From positions 1-34,053 of the IMG/VR virus record IMGVR_UViG_3300048115_000622: a DNA stretch of 34,053 nt; one strand, 5' to 3'. The DNA comes from a virus. The position numbers were made by a program, and so were the translations under genes. Below are positions 539 through 34,053 of this stretch, piece after piece (the first letter of the stretch is position 1; every line of letters begins with the position of its first letter). The notes beneath the pieces were generated by a model that had not been told where the DNA came from, made no database searches, and saw only the letters and a list, made by a program, of their open reading frames with translations.

Positions 539-763
539 TCAAAGTTCCTTCAATTCGTTAAATTCTGGTCTAATATCTGAAACTTTTACTCTACCGTAGG
601 TTAAATTTTCTATACGTATAGCATTTTTTAAAGATGGTACTTTATCCCCATTTTTCCAATAACTTATAGTTGCCTGCGTAACATTTAACTCTTTAGATAA
701 TATTTTCCGAGATGCACTACCGAGCATGTCTATAACTTCATTATACCACATTATAAATTCCAT
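539..763 (-). CDS. Cro-like HTH repressor
   Basis: A small DNA-binding protein of 74 codons from ATG 763, or 70 from ATG 751. The second start has a GGAA six bases upstream and may be the true one. The helix-turn-helix is visible as LSKELNVTQATISYWKNG, and the tail KVSDIRPEF matches the usual C-terminus of YdaS/Cro-type phage repressors. It is the first gene of the minus-strand lytic transcript and faces the CI-type repressor across the switch region, so by position it should repress the CI promoter and commit the phage to lysis. Its stop lies one base before the initiator ATG, so the two are co-transcribed. A promoter fits just upstream (784-812). Confidence 0.8.
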   Translation of the reverse strand: MEFIMWYNEVIDMLGSASRKILSKELNVTQATISYWKNGDKVPSLKNAIRIENLTYGRVKVSDIRPEFNELKEL

Positions 764-1085: not shown

Positions 1086-1775
1086 ATGAAAACAAAAAAT
1101 GAAGAAATAGGAAAAAGAATAATAGATGCTTTTCTTGATATAGGATGGAAAAAAGTAGGTATAAAAAAAAGAATAGCAATTGAGCTTAAAGTAGCACCAC
1201 CATCAATAACTAAGTGGATGAATGGCTCTGCTATACCTACAATTGATAAAATATTCTTAATATCAGAAATTACAAAAAAATCCTCCGATTGGATTTTATA
1301 TGGTAAAGATTCTAATTATATAAATAAAGAATCCTTTGTAAAAATAGAAAATAAAAACCAAAGAGAAATAAATATATTGTCATATGTACAGGCTGGGGAA
1401 TTGACTGATTTAAGCACTGATGAAATAGGCGAAAAAATAAATGTTGATTCTCAATGGTTATCAGATGATATCGATTATTTCGGTTTATATGTTAAAGGTG
1501 ATTCTATGTATAATGATGACCATCCAAAATCATTATTAGAGGGATCAGTGGTTGTTATAGACCCAACTAAAAATCCTGAAATTGGAGACGTGGTTGTTGT
1601 TTCTACACCTGAAAACACATCCACAATTAAATTATTATCTGGAGATCATTCTTGTAAGATATTGAAACCGTTAAATAAATCATACAGTAATATATCTGGA
1701 ATGAATTTAGAATTTTCAGAGTGTAATATAATTGGAGTAGCTATTATGTCAGTTCATCCACCTAAAAAATTATAA
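1086..1775 (+). CDS. CI/LexA-type phage repressor (HTH plus S24 autoprotease)
   Basis: The lysogeny repressor, 229 residues. An N-terminal helix-turn-helix (about 10-60) contains IAIELKVAPPSITKWMNG. The C-terminal half is a LexA/CI-type S24 peptidase: a likely self-cleavage site at Ala103-Gly104 (SYVQAGELTDL), the catalytic serine in VKGDSM (Ser140) and the general-base lysine in STIKLL (Lys182). All elements needed for RecA-stimulated self-cleavage are present, so the prophage is probably induced by DNA damage. A GGTGA ribosome site precedes ATG 1086. It faces the Cro-like gene, the standard immunity layout. About 250 bp of AT-rich DNA separates it from the next operon. Confidence 0.9.
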   Translation: MKTKNEEIGKRIIDAFLDIGWKKVGIKKRIAIELKVAPPSITKWMNGSAIPTIDKIFLISEITKKSSDWILYGKDSNYINKESFVKIENKNQREINILSYVQAGELTDLSTDEIGEKINVDSQWLSDDIDYFGLYVKGDSMYNDDHPKSLLEGSVVVIDPTKNPEIGDVVVVSTPENTSTIKLLSGDHSCKILKPLNKSYSNISGMNLEFSECNIIGVAIMSVHPPKKL

Positions 1776-2738: not shown

Positions 2739-3563
2739 ATGGAAAATTTACAAAATACAATAAATTATTTTGATGCTGATTATATTTCAAGATCAGAATT
2801 AGCAGACATACTAGATATGCCAAAAAAACAATATATTGAAACACATATTAATAAAAATATAATAAATAAAACAACTGATGCTATGAATTTTGGAACTGCT
2901 TGTCATCTGTATCTACTCGAAAATGATCAATTTGATAATGAAGTAGCTGTATATAGTGGTTCAACAAGACGAACAAAGGCTTATAAGGAGTTTTATGAGC
3001 AAAATATAGATAAGATAGTATTGATTCAAGATGAGTTCAATATGCTTAAATCTATGCAAAAAGCAATATCAGAAGATGACATATGCAATGGATTAATTGA
3101 CGGAATACTTGAACAAGCTATATATATCAAGAATTCCAAATACAAACTAAAATGTAAGCCTGATATTTATAATAATAAATTAAATATCGTCTGCGACTTA
3201 AAGACAACAGCAAAAATAGATAACGCATTTTATGGTAAGCTATCAAATAATAAAAGCTATGCAATACAAGCGTACATGTATCAGTTTATGACGAAAATAA
3301 AATATAAACTAACAGTAAAACCAACTTTTAAATTCTTGTTTGTAGACAAGACACCATATTCTAATGTTAAGCTTATAACAGCTAGTGAAGATTATATAAA
3401 TTGGGGAAAAATGTTATTTCAAAAAGCTATGCAATTAAGAGAAGAATATATAAAAGATATAGATAATAATGTATCTAACAAATCAGAGGAAGAGTTTATT
3501 AGTCCAGCTGCATGGAATATGAAAGAAGTTAATGAGTATTTTGAATTGAAAGGAGTAGCGTAA
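2739..3563 (+). CDS. recE: RecE-type exodeoxyribonuclease VIII (PD-(D/E)XK nuclease)
   Basis: A 274-residue 5'-3' double-strand exonuclease matching the C-terminal nuclease domain of RecE. The family landmarks are in order: ISRSELADIL near the start, GTACH at 52-56, KCKPD (Asp142), CDLKTT (Asp153, Lys155) and YAIQAYMYQ at about 174-182. These supply the metal-binding and catalytic residues of the PD-(D/E)XK fold. E. coli RecE is far longer, but its first ~600 residues are dispensable, and phage versions of this size are usual. Its stop overlaps the recT start by one base (TAATG), so the pair is translationally coupled. It resects DNA ends for single-strand annealing by RecT, useful for genome circularisation and exchange with resident prophages. 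Confidence 0.88.
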   Translation: MENLQNTINYFDADYISRSELADILDMPKKQYIETHINKNIINKTTDAMNFGTACHLYLLENDQFDNEVAVYSGSTRRTKAYKEFYEQNIDKIVLIQDEFNMLKSMQKAISEDDICNGLIDGILEQAIYIKNSKYKLKCKPDIYNNKLNIVCDLKTTAKIDNAFYGKLSNNKSYAIQAYMYQFMTKIKYKLTVKPTFKFLFVDKTPYSNVKLITASEDYINWGKMLFQKAMQLREEYIKDIDNNVSNKSEEEFISPAAWNMKEVNEYFELKGVA

Positions 3564-4303
3564 TGAATATTATAAAGCAACCAGTTGACTTTTTATCATA
3601 TTATAGTCAACTTAAACCAAAGTTTGAGAAATTATTTGGTGAAAACTCATCAAAATTTGAAGAAGAAAAAACCTATTTAATATCAATATTAACAAAAGAT
3701 TTAAATCTATTTAATTGCGCAAAAAATAATCCAATAGATTTGCAAAATGCAATTTCATATATAATAACGTCTAAATTAAGTTTAAATCCAGTTTTGGGGC
3801 ATTGTTATTTAATCACATATAGCGGACAAATAAAACTAGAAATATCTTATAAAGGCATGATAAAGCTAATGACAAATGAATGTAATTTAGTTAGCTGTTA
3901 TAGTGAGCTTGTTTATTCTAATGACAAATATAAGCCTAATGGAATATATGAACTTCCAACACATGATCGTGAGCCATTCGGTGATAGAGGGGAACTACAA
4001 GGTGCTTATTGTGTATTTGAATTTAAAAACGGAAGATATAGAAAAGAAGAGATGACATTAAAAATGTTATTAGAAGCTAAATCAATATCTAAAAGCAAAA
4101 ATTCAACTGCATATAGTAAGTTTTCTGATCAAATGTATAAAAAAATTGTAATACGAAGATTAGCAAAACAAGTTCTAGCGGAATCAGGGGCATCATTAGA
4201 AATAACAAACATATTAAATGAAGATAATAAAAATTTTAATTTAAATTCTAATAGCAAAAATGAATTTGAAGAATTTGAAGAATTTGAGGTTATCGATGCT
4301 TAA
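3563..4303 (+). CDS. recT: RecT family single-strand annealing protein
   Basis: A 246-residue recombinase partner of the RecE-type nuclease. Family features include the central LSLNPVLGHCYLI and EISYKGMIKL segments, then a basic C-terminal half with YSKFSDQMYKKIVIRRLAK, typical of RecT. The protein forms rings or filaments on single-stranded DNA and pairs complementary strands. The C-terminus is a short acidic repeat (EFEEFEEFE) coded by a GAATTTGAA repeat, possibly a flexible tail for contact with SSB. A tiny gene starts inside its last codons (4296), showing continued translational coupling. Confidence 0.88.
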   Translation: MNIIKQPVDFLSYYSQLKPKFEKLFGENSSKFEEEKTYLISILTKDLNLFNCAKNNPIDLQNAISYIITSKLSLNPVLGHCYLITYSGQIKLEISYKGMIKLMTNECNLVSCYSELVYSNDKYKPNGIYELPTHDREPFGDRGELQGAYCVFEFKNGRYRKEEMTLKMLLEAKSISKSKNSTAYSKFSDQMYKKIVIRRLAKQVLAESGASLEITNILNEDNKNFNLNSNSKNEFEEFEEFEVIDA

Positions 4304-4430
4304 TAAAAAAATTGTAAAGATAAATAAAATATATGAAGTACTAATTTACAGAAACAATAAATTAATAAATTTTATGGGTTTTTCAAATATAAAAGACGCA
4401 AAAAATTATATAGAGGAGAATAAAAAATGA
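4296..4430 (+). CDS. Very small basic protein (44 aa) overlapping recT
   Basis: ATG at 4296 overlaps the last eight bases of recT, and the TGA stop overlaps the next ATG (ATGA at 4427). GAGG lies six bases before the start, inside the recT tail. The product is about 44 residues, basic, with a beta-rich first half (KIYEVLIYRNNKL) and a helical end. No family recognised. The two-sided stop/start overlap is strong evidence for translation. Confidence 0.65.
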   Translation: MLNKKIVKINKIYEVLIYRNNKLINFMGFSNIKDAKNYIEENKK

Positions 4431-4783
4431 TTAAATGGGATGACTTAAATCGTCAAGAAAAACGGACATGTGTGAGTTTGTTTCCAGAGCAGGCTAAACA
4501 AGATGATGATGAAGATGTTCGTTTAATGGCGTATGAATTGCTAGGATTTACAGAGCAGGCTGAACTGGATACTAATTGGTTAATTAGGCTTCACGCTTAC
4601 CAAGCGTTTGGTTTTACCAAAGAAGCATTATTATATGATGAAAGTGAAGTGATAAAAAAAGAAGCAGAAATTTATTTTAAAATAAAAAATAAATTAGAAG
4701 GTAAAGATAAATCAGACGATCAAAGTAAATTACAAATAATTAAAGAAACATATGAAAAACTTAAGAAATATTTGGGAGAATAA
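4427..4783 (+). CDS. HEAT-like repeat protein, soluble paralogue
   Basis: A 118-residue soluble protein made of repeats of about 22-24 residues. The pattern is Asp-x-x-(I/V)-R-(L)-x-A-Y-x-x-(L/F)-G-F-T: DVRLMAYELLGFTEQAEL, then WLIRLHAYQAFGFTKEALL, then a capping unit EVIKKEAEIYFKIKNKLE. Repeats of this kind fold as HEAT-like helical hairpins that serve as protein-binding scaffolds. The C-terminal 30 residues are charged helix. A paralogue with the same repeats and the same IKNKLE ending lies on the opposite strand at 31618-32091, but with a membrane anchor. It sits directly after the recombination genes, coupled by ATGA. Partner and role unknown. Confidence 0.75.
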   Translation: MIKWDDLNRQEKRTCVSLFPEQAKQDDDEDVRLMAYELLGFTEQAELDTNWLIRLHAYQAFGFTKEALLYDESEVIKKEAEIYFKIKNKLEGKDKSDDQSKLQIIKETYEKLKKYLGE

Positions 4784-5780: not shown

Positions 5781-6911
5781 TTATAACATATCAATAACTT
5801 TTCTTTTATGAGTTTCGCATAAATGGGCGTATATTAATGTCATTTTAATATCTGAATGACCCAACAATTCCCTAATTGTGTTTAAATCAACGCCTTTCAT
5901 AGCTAGTTTAGAGGCAAATGTATGCCTCAAATCATGGAATCTAAAATCTTTTATATTTGCGGATTCTTTTAATTTTTTAAAGAATTCATGGTGTTTTACA
6001 AATGTAGAATTGGTTTTTTCATTTAAAAATAAATATTCGCTTTTTATTTTTTGGTATTGTTCTTCTATAACGCTGCATGATTTATCATTTAAATACACAA
6101 TTCTACTCTTTTGAGATTTTGTGTTATTTGATCTTAAATTAATATACTTATCTTTTAGATTTATATCATTTCTTTTTAAACTCTTTATTTCCCCAGCTCG
6201 CATACCTGTATTTAAAGCTAAAATCACTATATTTTTATGCTGGAAATAAATATTTCTGCATTCTGATAACAATCTATCTTCTTCTTTTTTACTTAAGTAT
6301 CTTACTATATTATTTTTCTCTTCTTTAAGCAGTTTAAAACCTTTGAGTGGGTTTTCTTTTATATAACTATATTCAACTGCAATATTCAAAGACGACCTTA
6401 TGGCGGTTATTATGCGGTTTATTCTTTTGTTACTGCATTTGCATTTGTTTTGATATTCAATAATAAATTTTTGAATTTTAATATTATCTATTTCATTAAT
6501 TTTATACTGGTGAAATTTTATTAGTGTTTTAGTTAATGCGTTGATTGTTCCCTTGTCACCTTTTCGATTTTGTTTAAACCAACCAATATAAAAATTATTA
6601 ATAAAATATCCAAAAGTTTCGCATTCATTTCTTTTATTAGCTACTTTTATAGCTTGAATATCTTTTCCTTGCGCCAACAAGCCAAACATTTTTTTCGCTT
6701 CTTCTCTAGCTTGCATTAATGTAATTTTTCCATGTTCTCCGATTGTATATCTAACATATTTATTATTTTTATTTCTATATCGTATAGAGTAGAATTTTCT
6801 GCCTGAAACGTTATTCCTTAAAATAAAACCTTTTATTTCGGTGTCAAAATAATCAACTCTACTTTTAATATTTATATTGTTAATAAATGTTTTTGTAAGT
6901 TTTGCTTTCAT
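5781..6911 (-). CDS. int: Tyrosine integrase
   Basis: A 376-residue site-specific recombinase of the P4/lambda integrase class. The N-terminal ~90 residues hold the arm-binding domain (YSIRYRNKNNKYVRYTIGEH, then LMQAREEAKK). Residues 97-185 are the core-binding SAM-like domain. The catalytic domain shows Arg238 (TGMRAGEIKSL), a beta-hairpin lysine near 265-268, His326-x-x-Arg329 (FHDLRHTFA), His352 (LLGHSDI) and the nucleophile Tyr361 (LIYAHL). It appears intact. It begins about 135 bp from the attP core and is transcribed away from it, the usual arrangement. It integrates the phage at the tmRNA gene of the host and, with an unidentified excisionase, removes it. Confidence 0.93.
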   Translation of the reverse strand: MKAKLTKTFINNINIKSRVDYFDTEIKGFILRNNVSGRKFYSIRYRNKNNKYVRYTIGEHGKITLMQAREEAKKMFGLLAQGKDIQAIKVANKRNECETFGYFINNFYIGWFKQNRKGDKGTINALTKTLIKFHQYKINEIDNIKIQKFIIEYQNKCKCSNKRINRIITAIRSSLNIAVEYSYIKENPLKGFKLLKEEKNNIVRYLSKKEEDRLLSECRNIYFQHKNIVILALNTGMRAGEIKSLKRNDINLKDKYINLRSNNTKSQKSRIVYLNDKSCSVIEEQYQKIKSEYLFLNEKTNSTFVKHHEFFKKLKESANIKDFRFHDLRHTFASKLAMKGVDLNTIRELLGHSDIKMTLIYAHLCETHKRKVIDML

Positions 6912-27967: not shown

Positions 27968-28009
27968 ATTATAACATTACATAAATATTAAACTAAAAAT
28001 TGCAATTAA
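27968..28009 (-). promoter_or_regulatory. Duplicated late-promoter element, copy 1 (head block)
   Basis: TTAATTGCAATTTTTAGTTT begins at the terL stop, followed by 14 bases and then GTTATAATT. It matches the copy at 12011-12052 base for base in both conserved blocks, and the downstream A/T leader is also alike. TATAAT (27968-27973) is a perfect -10 hexamer. It should start the portal-to-internal-protein transcript. Confidence 0.75.
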
Positions 28010-29481
28010 TAACTGGTATAGTCAAAATGTGCTTTTTGTACTTCGTTGTTATTATAACTTTGCTTATTATTTGAGGGGAATGAATAAGCAAAACTTAAAG
28101 CTAAAGCATCTGCGTTATCTGGTGACATCCCTAAATCTTTTTTAATTTTATCTTTTGATACTAAAATCAATTGATCTCTTGCATTATGATAATACTCAAT
28201 TACCTCTAACTCCATTTTAAGCAGTGTATCATTTTCGATACTTCCCCCCTCTTTCATCCATTCATTTAACTTTGAATACATGTAAGCACGCATATTTGCA
28301 TACTTTGAATCAGGTGATTTACTAGCAAAATTAACATTAATAACATTATAATATCCAAGCTGTCTTAATCTGTCACCATATGGAGCACCGACCCCTGTTG
28401 CGTCAATTAAGACATGTTCTACTCTATGTTCATCAATTTTTCTAGATAAATGAGCACAAAATTGCATAGCGTCTCTTGTTTTAGAGCCTGGTATTTTTTC
28501 TGGAGTTATTATGTGCGCATGATTACCTTTGCGATATCTTATTACGCAATAATCCGAACCGCCTCTCGCAATATCAACACTCATAATTAAGGGATCATCA
28601 GGAAAATGAAAGGGTTGATTTTTAACCGCTTTATCTATTGTTTGTGTTGATATAAATTGCATATCACTAGATGAAGGGAATTCCCCATAAACTCTAACTT
28701 TCATAAAATCAGAGTTTTCGCCGTATTGCTCTTTCCACTCCTGAATTTGATCTTGATTAATGCCTTCTACAAATTCACTGTTTATATTTCTAGTTTTCCA
28801 ATATTTCCTATTTTTTGTGAAACAGTCTTTAAAATCACCTGCTCTTGTTGGGTTTCCCAACGCAAACCATATCATCTCTGTATTGGAATCGGTTAAAGCT
28901 CCTTGTGCTGTATCCCATATTTTACTGATTGAGCTAGCTTCATCAAATAGTAGCAATAACCTTTTGCCTTCATTATGAAGACCAGCAAAAGCATCTGGGT
29001 TATTTTCGGAATATGGGATAAAGTCTGCTCGCCATGTTTTTTCACGGTCAGGGGATACGCTATATATGCTTGTAGCTGTCATCTTAAACCAATGATTGTG
29101 TAGCATTAACCTAAACCATTTTGCAACTTCTGGAGCTGTTTTTTTAAGTAATTGATTTTCTGTGTTTGAAGTAATTACTGCTTTAGTATCTACTTTAGTT
29201 GATAAACAAAACAATATTAACCATGCAGTTAAACAACTTTTTCCGATACCATGACCGCTTGCTACCGCTTTACGTATTGCTTTATAATTGTTATTTGGTA
29301 ATTCTTTCAGATCATTACCTAACTCCACTAATATTTCTTTTTGCCAAGTCCTGACACTATGTTGCTCTAATTCTGTTCCAGCCTTACCCCACGGAAACGC
29401 CCATAACACAAAATTATAAGGGTCGTGCTGATATTCTTTTAATTTCTTAGCAATTGCCCTGTCGAAATCTTTTTGTTGCAT
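28006..29481 (-). CDS. terL: Terminase large subunit
   Basis: 491 residues, the packaging motor. The ATPase domain has Walker A SGHGIGKS (75-82), Walker B LLLLFDEAS (Asp180, Glu181) and the coupling motif FALGNPT (207-212). The RNase-H-like nuclease shows Asp303 (SVDIARGGSD), Asp360 (LIDATGVG) and Asp458 (DNADALAL). All are intact. It pumps DNA into the procapsid and cuts concatemers. GAGG precedes the ATG. Its stop is the first base of the late-promoter element. Circular permutation of the genome is compatible with headful packaging, but the packaging mode cannot be read here. Confidence 0.93.
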   Translation of the reverse strand: MQQKDFDRAIAKKLKEYQHDPYNFVLWAFPWGKAGTELEQHSVRTWQKEILVELGNDLKELPNNNYKAIRKAVASGHGIGKSCLTAWLILFCLSTKVDTKAVITSNTENQLLKKTAPEVAKWFRLMLHNHWFKMTATSIYSVSPDREKTWRADFIPYSENNPDAFAGLHNEGKRLLLLFDEASSISKIWDTAQGALTDSNTEMIWFALGNPTRAGDFKDCFTKNRKYWKTRNINSEFVEGINQDQIQEWKEQYGENSDFMKVRVYGEFPSSSDMQFISTQTIDKAVKNQPFHFPDDPLIMSVDIARGGSDYCVIRYRKGNHAHIITPEKIPGSKTRDAMQFCAHLSRKIDEHRVEHVLIDATGVGAPYGDRLRQLGYYNVINVNFASKSPDSKYANMRAYMYSKLNEWMKEGGSIENDTLLKMELEVIEYYHNARDQLILVSKDKIKKDLGMSPDNADALALSFAYSFPSNNKQSYNNNEVQKAHFDYTSY

Positions 29482-30758: not shown

Positions 30759-31154
30759 TTAAAAAGGTATTTCCCCACCAAAGTTATTAAAATTCATTTC
30801 TTTATTTTCAGTTTTTACACTGCTTTTTTTATCTCCTCCTATAAATTGAAATTCTTTCAAATTTATTGATGTTTTGCTTTTTTTATTCCCTTGGTTATCT
30901 TCCCATAAATTAGTTTTAAGTTTTCCCTCTATATAAAGCTGTGTTCCCTTATCACAATATTGTTGTATTAATTCTGCTTGCTTGCCGAACGCTACAATAT
31001 TATGCCATTCTGTACTCTTGACATAATTTCCTGTTCTATCTTTGTATTTTTCATTTGTTGCGATGCTAAAATTACAAACTTTAAAACTTCCATCTTTAAG
31101 CTCTGGTTTTCTGCCAACTGTTCCCAAAATAGTTACTTTATTTATTCCCACCAT
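30759..31154 (-). CDS. ssb: Single-stranded DNA-binding protein
   Basis: 131 residues with a full OB fold: INKVTILGTVGRKPELK, then FSIATNEKYKDRTGNYVKSTEWHNIVAFGKQAELI, then YCDKGTQLYIEGKL. A short linker leads to the C-terminal tip GGEIPF, close to the DDDIPF tip that host SSB uses to recruit repair and replication proteins, though with one acid only. AGAGG precedes the ATG, which overlaps the upstream stop. It should serve replication and work with RecT. Confidence 0.93.
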   Translation of the reverse strand: MVGINKVTILGTVGRKPELKDGSFKVCNFSIATNEKYKDRTGNYVKSTEWHNIVAFGKQAELIQQYCDKGTQLYIEGKLKTNLWEDNQGNKKSKTSINLKEFQFIGGDKKSSVKTENKEMNFNNFGGEIPF

Positions 31155-31468
31155 TTATTAAATCCTCTTTTTAATTCCCTGCATTTATTGATGATTCGAA
31201 TTAATTCAAATATTCCAAGTGAAACAATGAATCCCCAAACTGGAGTATTAAGTAATAAACAACTTAATATCGATAATAATAAAGTACCCACAAATATATC
31301 TGTAATGCTATAATTTTTACTTAGCAAGTAACGCCACAAGAAACCTATTCCAGCAATAATTATCCCTACCCACAAAGGAGCTTTTAAAAGCAAAAGTGTT
31401 AAAACTGCTATAATTCCAACACTAATCAAGCTTTCTTTTATAATTTTTTTATTAAATTTAATATTCAT
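31142..31468 (-). CDS. Small membrane protein with four hydrophobic segments
   Basis: 108 residues from ATG 31468, chosen because GAGGAG lies just upstream; a frame from 31549 would overlap the 49-residue gene. Hydrophobic segments at about 14-30, 32-50, 57-75 and 78-96 are joined by short loops, two of them carrying a similar L-L-x-(K/N)-(A/T)-P-(L/V)-W word, suggesting an internal duplication. Basic ends (KKIIK, KCRELKRG). No family recognised. It couples into ssb by overlap. Confidence 0.65.
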   Translation of the reverse strand: MNIKFNKKIIKESLISVGIIAVLTLLLLKAPLWVGIIIAGIGFLWRYLLSKNYSITDIFVGTLLLSILSCLLLNTPVWGFIVSLGIFELIRIINKCRELKRGFNKWWE

Positions 31469-31478
31469 ATTATTCTCC

Positions 31479-31628
31479 TCACCAAATATTTTTTTTGATT
31501 GCATTTTTAATAAGCTTTTCCAGTATCGAATTGGGGATACAAAGAACATCTTTTAAAGATAATTTGCCATTATCTCTAAACGCATATAATAGCTCTCGTG
31601 ACAATTTCCATTCTGTTTTATTTTCCAT
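31479..31628 (-). CDS. Small protein (49 aa) between HEAT-like and membrane genes
   Basis: ATG at 31626-31628 overlaps the last eleven bases of the HEAT-like membrane gene, and AGGA lies eight bases upstream. TGA at 31479-31481 is followed ten bases later by the next start. The product is one helical domain with ELLYAFRDNGKLSLKDVLCI, then SILEKLIKNA, possibly a small DNA- or protein-binding fold. It closes an otherwise empty ~150-bp gap in a tightly packed operon. Confidence 0.65.
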   Translation of the reverse strand: MENKTEWKLSRELLYAFRDNGKLSLKDVLCIPNSILEKLIKNAIKKNIW

Positions 31629-32091
31629 ATTTTAAATCCTCACTTGTTAAACTTTCTAATTTATTTTTAATATTAAAATATTTTCTTGATTCGTTTTTTA
31701 TATCTTCGTTTTCATCTTCTAAGGATACTTGTGTAAAACCAAGACATTGATAAGCCTCTAATCTAATTTGCCAATGATCATCTTGTGTAGCTTGTTTGTA
31801 GTTTTTATAGCCCAACGCTCTATAAGCGTTCCTTCTAATTTGCCAAGATTTATCATTCAAGTACTGTTCTGTAAACCCAGAAGATTGATACATGTACAGA
31901 CGTATCAAATTATAATTATCGATATCATCGTCAATAATATGAGTGTTTATTATTCGATGAGGTGGAGAGTAAAGAGTGGAATATGAGGGGGTAGTAAAAG
32001 ATTGCCATGTAACATACAACAATAAACCAATAATTATTAAAATGGCTGGAATAGCAATAAGCAATAAACCATAAAGTTCATTCGTCTTCAT
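31618..32091 (-). CDS. HEAT-like repeat protein, membrane-anchored paralogue
   Basis: 157 residues. One N-terminal membrane helix (about 8-28) is followed by a polar linker (TTPSYSTLYSPPHR), then four repeats of the same type as in the protein at 4427: LIRLYMYQSSGFTEQYL, WQIRRNAYRALGYKNYKQA, WQIRLEAYQCLGFTQVSLE, and the cap DIKNESRKYFNIKNKLE. The cap is nearly identical in both proteins. Positive charge is at the N-terminus, so the repeats may face the periplasm, although this rule is weak here. Translationally coupled to its upstream gene through ATGA. Confidence 0.78.
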   Translation of the reverse strand: MKTNELYGLLLIAIPAILIIIGLLLYVTWQSFTTPSYSTLYSPPHRIINTHIIDDDIDNYNLIRLYMYQSSGFTEQYLNDKSWQIRRNAYRALGYKNYKQATQDDHWQIRLEAYQCLGFTQVSLEDENEDIKNESRKYFNIKNKLESLTSEDLKYGK

Positions 32092-32240
32092 TTTAATTCA
32101 TCTCCTGCAAGCCCCTTGTAATACTCTTCGAGAGCATCTATTTCTATATCCTCATTATTTTCATTCCCTATAATAAATAGCAAAATCAATATAAAAACAA
32201 ACAACATAAAAAACATAAAAACATTTAAAAATATAATCAT
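32088..32240 (-). CDS. Single-span small membrane protein
   Basis: 50 residues from ATG 32240, chosen for its excellent GGAGGAATT ribosome site; a longer frame from 32324 lacks one. A hydrophobic helix at about 3-27 is followed by an acidic tail (ENNEDIEIDALEEYY). It shares the ATGA overlap with the HEAT-like membrane protein, so they may act together at the membrane. No family recognised. Confidence 0.65.
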   Translation of the reverse strand: MIIFLNVFMFFMLFVFILILLFIIGNENNEDIEIDALEEYYKGLAGDELK

Positions 32241-32324
32241 TTTTAATTCCTCCATATAAAGATTTTTTTTATTAAATTTGACATGAATAATTTTTGTTTT
32301 TCTAAAAAAATAATTTGAAAACAT

Positions 32325-32367: not shown

Positions 32368-32760
32368 TCATAATAATTCACCCATATAATGATAATTTGC
32401 GTAATTCTTTTTGCCTTTTTCTCTTATTTCGATATATCCATTTTCCGACCATACTTTATTTACAGTTAACGCATGTATGTGCGAGTCTTCTTTGTAAACG
32501 CTATCTAATAATGCTTTTAGCAAATTGTCGCAGTCTGGTCGTTTTTGATGCGGTTTACCCACCATTTCTTTTTGTTTTTTCTTAGAAAATGAACTGGGTA
32601 TTTGTATGCCAAAAGTTATGTGATCATAGTTATCAACTTTGATATTTAAACGCCTGCATTCGTCTTTAAATTCGAGATATTTAAGAACGCAAGGGCGTTT
32701 TTTCCATCTATCAGAGCGGGTCATTCTAGGTGCAGGGCATGGGTCAATAGCGTAAATCAT
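32368..32760 (-). CDS. rusA: RusA-type Holliday junction resolvase
   Basis: 130 residues. N-terminal PCPAPRMTRSDRWKKRPCV is the RusA start pattern. The catalytic region reads KRPDCDNLLKALLD, then EDSHI, giving Asp76, Asp78, Lys82 and Asp92 as counterparts of the three acids and lysine of E. coli RusA. It cuts four-way junctions that form during replication and RecE/RecT recombination, so the DNA can be packaged. The ATG overlaps the previous stop (ATGA). Confidence 0.9.
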   Translation of the reverse strand: MIYAIDPCPAPRMTRSDRWKKRPCVLKYLEFKDECRRLNIKVDNYDHITFGIQIPSSFSKKKQKEMVGKPHQKRPDCDNLLKALLDSVYKEDSHIHALTVNKVWSENGYIEIREKGKKNYANYHYMGELL

Positions 32761-33665: not shown

Positions 33666-34053
33666 TTAAAGATTGTCCCAAATTCTCAAATTATGGTCTG
33701 TTAAAGCATTACCCATTAATTTTTTGCTAGAGTTAGTAGCTAACTTCGTAGTATTAGCAGTAAAGTTATTTTGATTTGAATAAAACGACCTCCAGTTGCT
33801 CACTGTGGCGTTTTCTATAATTTCCAACCTAAGACTAAGGTCAAACGAATTAATCTTCTTCACGAGCAATTGTATAGCCCTAGAAGTCAATTTATGTTTA
33901 TTCTCTTTTCTCATTTCTAAATAATCTTGAAAAGCATCATGTAAAGTTGAATCTAAGTCTAATTTCCAGTTGTAATCTTTAGATTTTAGTTTGATTACTT
34001 TTTGTTCTTCATTTAAACCTAAAACAGAGTCCTTTTTTTTATTTATTTTTTTT
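33666..34053 (-). CDS. Replication initiator, O-like (C-terminal part; gene crosses the contig join)
   Basis: This is the end of the gene that starts at 537. Unique coding sequence is 33666-33926 (86 codons and stop), because 33927-34053 repeats 1-127. The join is in frame: 537 + 261 = 798 bases, 265 residues. The C-terminal ~110 residues are helical, with WKLDLDSTLHDAFQDYLEMR, then LTSRAIQLLVKKI, then SNWRSFY, and the final LMGNALTDHNLRIWDNL. In O-type proteins this end contacts the helicase loader, and the presumed loader follows directly. Confidence 0.8.
   Translation of the reverse strand, partial: KKINKKKDSVLGLNEEQKVIKLKSKDYNWKLDLDSTLHDAFQDYLEMRKENKHKLTSRAIQLLVKKINSFDLSLRLEIIENATVSNWRSFYSNQNNFTANTTKLATNSSKKLMGNALTDHNLRIWDNL
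33927..34053. repeat. Terminal direct repeat (127 bp, identical to 1-127)
   Basis: The last 127 bases equal the first 127 exactly, and the match stops at the window end. The repeat falls inside the initiator gene, which is whole only if the ends are joined. An overlap of exactly 127 is a common assembler k-mer length, so this most likely marks a circular assembly, not a physical terminal repeat. Confidence 0.92.

Follow-up and report, generated by a model that had tools for sequence, protein, structure and literature searches.

The phage genome analyzed here encodes two small repeat proteins, P0001 and P0002, which by their sequences are true homologs and which belong to an apparently undescribed family that is absent from the libraries searched. 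P0001, predicted to be soluble, is encoded within a recombination module together with an exonuclease VIII-like nuclease and RecT, and P0002, predicted to be membrane-anchored, is encoded between the genes for a RusA-like resolvase and a single-strand binding protein (SSB). We tentatively propose, at somewhat less than even likelihood, that the two proteins are recombination or replication accessory adaptors in cytosolic and membrane-tethered forms. The homology, the repeat architecture, the gene overlaps and the proximity to annealing genes in unrelated phages were observed, and the fold and transmembrane (TM) helix were predicted.

Two homologous repeat proteins in a temperate phage

The window, the whole stretch of DNA that was analyzed, is the virus record IMGVR_UViG_3300048115_000622 from position 1 to 34,053 (34,053 bases, 29% GC). 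It carries an exact direct terminal repeat of 127 bases (1-127 and 33927-34053), and the assembly is therefore probably circular, with a length of ~33.9 kb. Divergent regulators, a tyrosine integrase and a sequence resembling a tmRNA 3′ end, as we read them, indicate a temperate phage (Table 1). The terminase is ~47% identical to those of the Pseudomonas phages UFJF_PfDIW6 and AF. A closer relative by its terminase (97%), the contig at locus L004, is too short to cover P0001 or P0002, and a RecT-based search for close relatives of the window found none.

Table 1. Features of the window that bear on P0001 and P0002
Feature	Position	Strand	Basis or remark
Regulator of a divergent pair (presumed)	539..763	-	
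Regulator of a divergent pair (presumed)	1086..1775	+	
RecE/exonuclease VIII-like nuclease	2739..3563	+	phrog_412, E 2.7e-39
RecT single-strand annealing protein	3563..4303	+	phrog_148, E 8.7e-40; PF03837
44-aa ORF	4297..4430	+	sequence; 4260-4430 in the ORF list
P0001, soluble mini-HEAT protein, 118 aa	4427..4783	+	AlphaFold pLDDT 92.8
Endonuclease-related small protein, 3′ of P0001	4752..5081	+	phrog_681, E 4.4e-10; start probably 4785
Tyrosine integrase (presumed)	5781..6911	-	
Probable attP, GGGTTCGACTCCCCCCGCCTCCACCAA	7045..7073	+	adjoins integrase; matches a tmRNA 3′ end, taken to be that of ssrA
Terminase large subunit	28006..29481	-	sequence search; later in the predicted P0002 transcript
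SSB with C-terminal IPF tail	30759..31154	-	phrog_44, E 6.5e-41
Multi-TM protein, between P0002 and SSB	31142..31549	-	hydropathy; family searches without match
P0002, membrane-anchored mini-HEAT protein, 157 aa	31618..32091	-	AlphaFold pLDDT 85.4
Small single-TM protein	32088..32324	-	hydropathy; stop overlaps P0002 start (ATGA)
RusA-like Holliday junction resolvase	32368..32760	-	phrog_140, E 5.9e-21

Both ORFs lie where the preliminary description of this DNA had placed them, on opposite strands. In a BLASTP alignment the proteins are identical at 38 of 78 residues (49% over 78 aa, E 8e-18), and their Smith-Waterman score of 157 compares with a mean of 30 and a maximum of 65 in 2000 shuffles (z = 23); by the same comparison no further ORF of the window resembles either one. 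P0001 consists of an N-cap, two 22-aa units, a C-cap and a C-terminal helix, and P0002 of a TM helix, a linker, repeat units and a C-cap. The common repeat motif that had been described is real, occurring as VRLMAYELLGFT and WLIRLHAYQAFGFT in P0001 and as WQIRRNAYRALGYK and WQIRLEAYQCLGFT in P0002, but it is looser than claimed, with Trp in only one of the two P0001 units. Likewise, IKNKLE ends both C-caps, as had been noted, but several other members finish in a related YF/YL..K cap too, and the common IKNKLE represents a local trait of the C-cap in this family.

The suggestion that the window retains a special, co-acting duplicate was not borne out. The closest relative of either protein is not the other window copy: P0001 scores 200 against G011a and 194 against G005a, versus 157 against P0002, which in turn scores 181 against G005a (G numbers denote viral contigs or their proteins). 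A recent duplication of the pair is unlikely, because the copies are not mutual closest relatives and each scores at least as well against proteins from unrelated phages as against the other. Contigs with at least two copies are common (G005, G008, G010 and G011), so that the two window copies need not act together.

A family of 22-residue repeats

Neither P0001 nor P0002, used as a single query against viral contigs, retrieved anything, and tblastn searches of GenBank phages (50,697 records) and plasmids gave nothing at useful E-values; degenerate DNA motif scans were therefore needed, and relatives were collected by scanning viral contigs in this way and reading the ORFs. Loci L005, L013, L031, L042 and L045, where the ORFs contain no repeat protein, were dropped as chance motif matches. 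The family as collected appears to span about 12 viral lineages, counted after merging G007 with G010 (12 shared gene hits) and G394 with the contig of L044. Among 84,980 species genomes, an alignment-based scan was empty and the motif scan found one contig, on which an ORF presumably encodes a terminase; a profile search across 380 genomes from the matching contig's phylum yielded the source genome and one weak match. This near-absence from genomes, with the profile search covering that one phylum, makes the family look viral.

Pfam recognizes the family as generic HEAT only. With PF02985, P0002 scores 29.2 bits and P0001 16.7 against a gathering cut-off of 23.5, and P0001 lies under the cut-offs of both PF02985 and PF13646, the latter of which most relatives exceed. 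PHROGs gave weak partial matches to the family at best, NCBIfam gave no match of weight, and no paper on the family was found in the open-licence literature. The lack of a specific entry in the libraries searched agrees with the earlier suggestion that these proteins might be undescribed.

The motifs are spaced by exactly 22 residues in 78 of 89 cases. The consensus of 91 units is KDEDWxIRLEAYRALGFTEEAK, with Asp at position 2 in 84 units and Arg at position 8 in all 91, the Arg being required by the search motif, and an Asp-Arg ladder with a spacing of six, as in HEAT repeats, is present. Proteins contain from one motif (L029, 71 aa) to ~17 (L028, 512 aa). Several members, P0001 included, have in common the N-cap K.W/Y..L...EK.A..SLFP.EAK and the C-cap IR.EA..YF..K. 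Variability within the unit is highest at positions 3-6 and 14, and the remaining positions seem structural, as in protein-binding solenoids. The repeats of G004 have a mean identity of 95% at the DNA level, so that their number must have changed recently. In the phage contig G010, at least four repeat genes are consecutive (L028:1-4011), among them that of the 512-aa protein. At L029:7890-8646, adjacent genes for an HNH-like protein and the 71-aa repeat protein carry ~31 identical bases spanning their start codons, which is a duplicated gene start.

Predicted fold and membrane helix

In AlphaFold models built with alignments of relatives, P0001 and P0002 are both short alpha-solenoids of the same architecture, with a unit made of an 11-residue helix and a 4-6-residue helix, and with a longer C-cap helix last. 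The preliminary description had named differing folds as evidence against a common module; the predicted folds agree, and their class is a compact HEAT/LRV-like solenoid. The repeat part of the P0002 model has a pLDDT of ~90 or above, and its linker is of low confidence. As had been proposed, a membrane helix is predicted in P0002 and not in P0001, both by hydropathy (3.06 at residues 9-27) and by an N-terminal AlphaFold helix at residues 3-33. Few charged residues lie beside this helix, and the topology of P0002 by charge is ambiguous. Most members of the family have no membrane helix, and a second membrane-anchored member is L024 in G003.

Gene neighborhoods of P0001 and P0002

P0001 closes a series of four genes in which every start after the first overlaps the preceding stop. 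The recT start overlaps the exonuclease stop (TAATG), and the 44-aa ORF overlaps both the recT stop (ATGCTTAA) and the P0001 start (ATGA). If lambda is taken as the guide, as we assume here, P0001 belongs to a pL-like arm together with exo and recT, and P0002 to the nin-like part of a pR-like arm. The preliminary description had placed P0002 in a lytic operon on the opposite strand. The strand is correct, but the label is misleading, because P0002 sits in a DNA-metabolism part, with RusA on one side and SSB on the other, and precedes the terminase and structural genes, so that "lytic" fits only the far end of the predicted transcript. A 49-aa ORF that is not in the ORF list (31479-31628, minus strand, MENKTEWKLSRELL...) begins inside the P0002 stop region and is likely a small gene of the P0002 transcript. 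Small membrane-protein genes are clustered around P0002 (31142-32324) within this DNA-metabolism transcript.

The TM helix of P0002, the neighboring membrane-protein genes and the anchored L024 would fit a membrane-linked pair, with P0002 in the membrane and P0001 in the cytosol, that acts on one envelope or host target in host control or superinfection exclusion. We regard such a pair as very unlikely, since P0001 is encoded in the exo-recT operon, a membrane helix is lacking in most of the family, and P0001 and P0002 are not each other's closest relatives.

Association with annealing genes in other phages

The repeat gene of G008 directly precedes that for RecT (PF03837, 1.6e-22) with a 1-nt gap; that of G002, split by the contig ends, lies between genes for Sak4 (phrog_124) and an SSB-like DUF669 protein; and that of G010 adjoins an SSB-like gene and a Sak4-type AAA_24 ATPase gene, while in the related G007 the repeat gene is one gene away from the AAA_24 ATPase. 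In G004, the repeat gene overlaps a phrog_10048 gene by 11 nt, with a PD-(D/E)XK gene near. Because phrog_10048 genes neighbor an exonuclease and SSB in Cr-LKS3 and an endonuclease in UFJF_PfDIW6, and have an SSB a few genes off in PMBT5, we counted this gene as part of a recombination module by position only, and its product may be an unrecognized annealing protein. A gene of this phrog, annotated as of unknown function, lies at L018:7086-8186. Elsewhere, the repeat gene precedes DNA polymerase A (G006), is near a gene that we take to encode DnaE (G003), is 5.7 kb from an ERF gene (G392), or lies near what we read as tail genes on a T4-like contig (G394); no recombination link was seen near the repeat genes of G393 and G005.

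An annealing gene is at most two genes from the repeat gene in five of the six lineages in which one was recognized or inferred, G004 being counted through the position-based role of phrog_10048, and the expected number is ~0.5. With a model of four positions per genome and one gene per 0.75 kb, P is ~4e-5 uncorrected, or 0.003 when all 12 lineages are counted, although these values give only moderate support because the annealing-gene category was chosen post hoc. Against the adaptor proposal, the association was noticed afterwards in six lineages, one of them (G004) inferred, and G392, G394, G393 and G005 do not fit. Early regions of temperate phages also gather unrelated accessory genes, which counts against it as well. 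The repeat proteins might accordingly be moron-like accessory products, whose position reflects a tolerant early region and nearby RecT-mediated recombination; the missing link in G005, G393 and G394, the distance in G392 and the patchy, often multi-copy nature of the family agree with this, but we consider it rather unlikely given the tight placement in unrelated phages (the four-gene overlap of P0001, RecT in G008, Sak4-DUF669 in G002) and an association in five of six lineages that far exceeds expectation.

Proposed role

Exclusion and anti-defense, the functions first suggested for these proteins, are both conceivable, but the neighborhoods favor DNA recombination or replication, as the exo-RecT, RusA/SSB, Sak4 and RecT settings make a helper in these processes likelier than a lysis or exclusion pair. 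As adaptors, P0001 and P0002 would be small protein-binding alpha-solenoids made of compact HEAT-like units of 22 residues, with a cap at either end. P0001 would be the cytosolic form, produced from the exo-recT transcript and in contact with RecT, with the exonuclease or with DNA coated by SSB, and P0002, from the RusA-SSB transcript, would offer a like binding surface on the inner membrane. Proteins are the usual ligands of such alpha-solenoids, and the products of an exonuclease/RecT/SSB transcript, or host factors acting at the same DNA ends, are thus the likeliest partners; we infer a recombination protein or SSB. The TM helix of P0002 would anchor this same interaction, the repeats facing the cytoplasm; periplasmic repeats would contradict the model.

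The main functional rival is an antagonist comparable to lambda Gam or P22 Abc2, in which the solenoid would bind a host nuclease, for example RecBCD, or a defense protein able to sense phage recombination. Lambda exo, bet and gam form a single operon, and RecBCD inhibitors were found solely in phages having a recombinase (PMC3784561). A scan of window proteins showed neither Gam nor Abc2, and the variable repeat number and near-identical G004 repeats fit fast evolution. We nevertheless think an antagonist unlikely: P0001 and P0002 match neither the Pfam models for Gam (PF06064) and Abc2 (PF11043) at E up to 5 nor any PADLOC entry, a membrane anchor is unexpected for a RecBCD inhibitor, and the recurrence of the P0001 caps in several unrelated phages points to a partner that is conserved.

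Extending the adaptor proposal, a phage-restricted mini-HEAT family could be a general and hitherto unrecognized partner of RecT and Sak4 annealing proteins, its tethered form bringing phage recombination or replication to the inner membrane, an idea to which we give a low probability. Recombineering and phage mosaicism both depend on phage annealing proteins, which are themselves targeted or sensed by several defense systems. A recurrent small solenoid next to RecT-type as well as Sak4-type recombinases would be a candidate for a shared helper or shield, and having a membrane-anchored copy close to SSB raises the question of where phage recombination takes place.

Comparison with known systems

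Gam and Abc2 are RecBCD inhibitors encoded in phage modules (PMC3784561; PMC9836394) and, like the proteins described here, are small and accompany a phage annealing protein (PMC3784561), but they differ from them in sequence and are not repeat proteins. Lambda Orf and YbcN are recombination mediators, small SSB-binding helpers of phage origin, and in DLP12 the ybcN gene is found upstream of rusA (PMC4118853), a setting comparable to that of P0002. Neither helper matches P0001 or P0002 in sequence. Orf, moreover, is not known to be a solenoid of repeats.

Leucine-rich repeat variant (LRV, PF01816) units have 24 residues with one alpha helix and one short helix, and the family resembles them in its short alpha-plus-short-helix unit, with one weak BFVD match bearing the LRV name; in contrast, the LRV model was matched neither by P0001 and P0002 (E up to 5) nor by eight relatives (E up to 0.1). 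The artificial alphaRep proteins, with repeats of 31 residues, are the only PDB matches to the family by sequence (1.4e-5 for one relative) and, with PBS-type HEAT-like repeats, the best by fold, although their geometry differs, as Foldseek gave no confident match (best E 0.28, TM-score ~0.3-0.4). HEAT repeats (PF02985, PF13646) have a unit of ~31-47 residues with two full antiparallel helices, unlike the 22-residue unit found here, with its 11-residue and ~5-residue helices. The family nonetheless has the helical solenoid, the D(x5)R spacing and the IR..A...LG helix of HEAT proteins, and P0002 and many relatives score to the HEAT models; its unit would represent a compact natural repeat scaffold.
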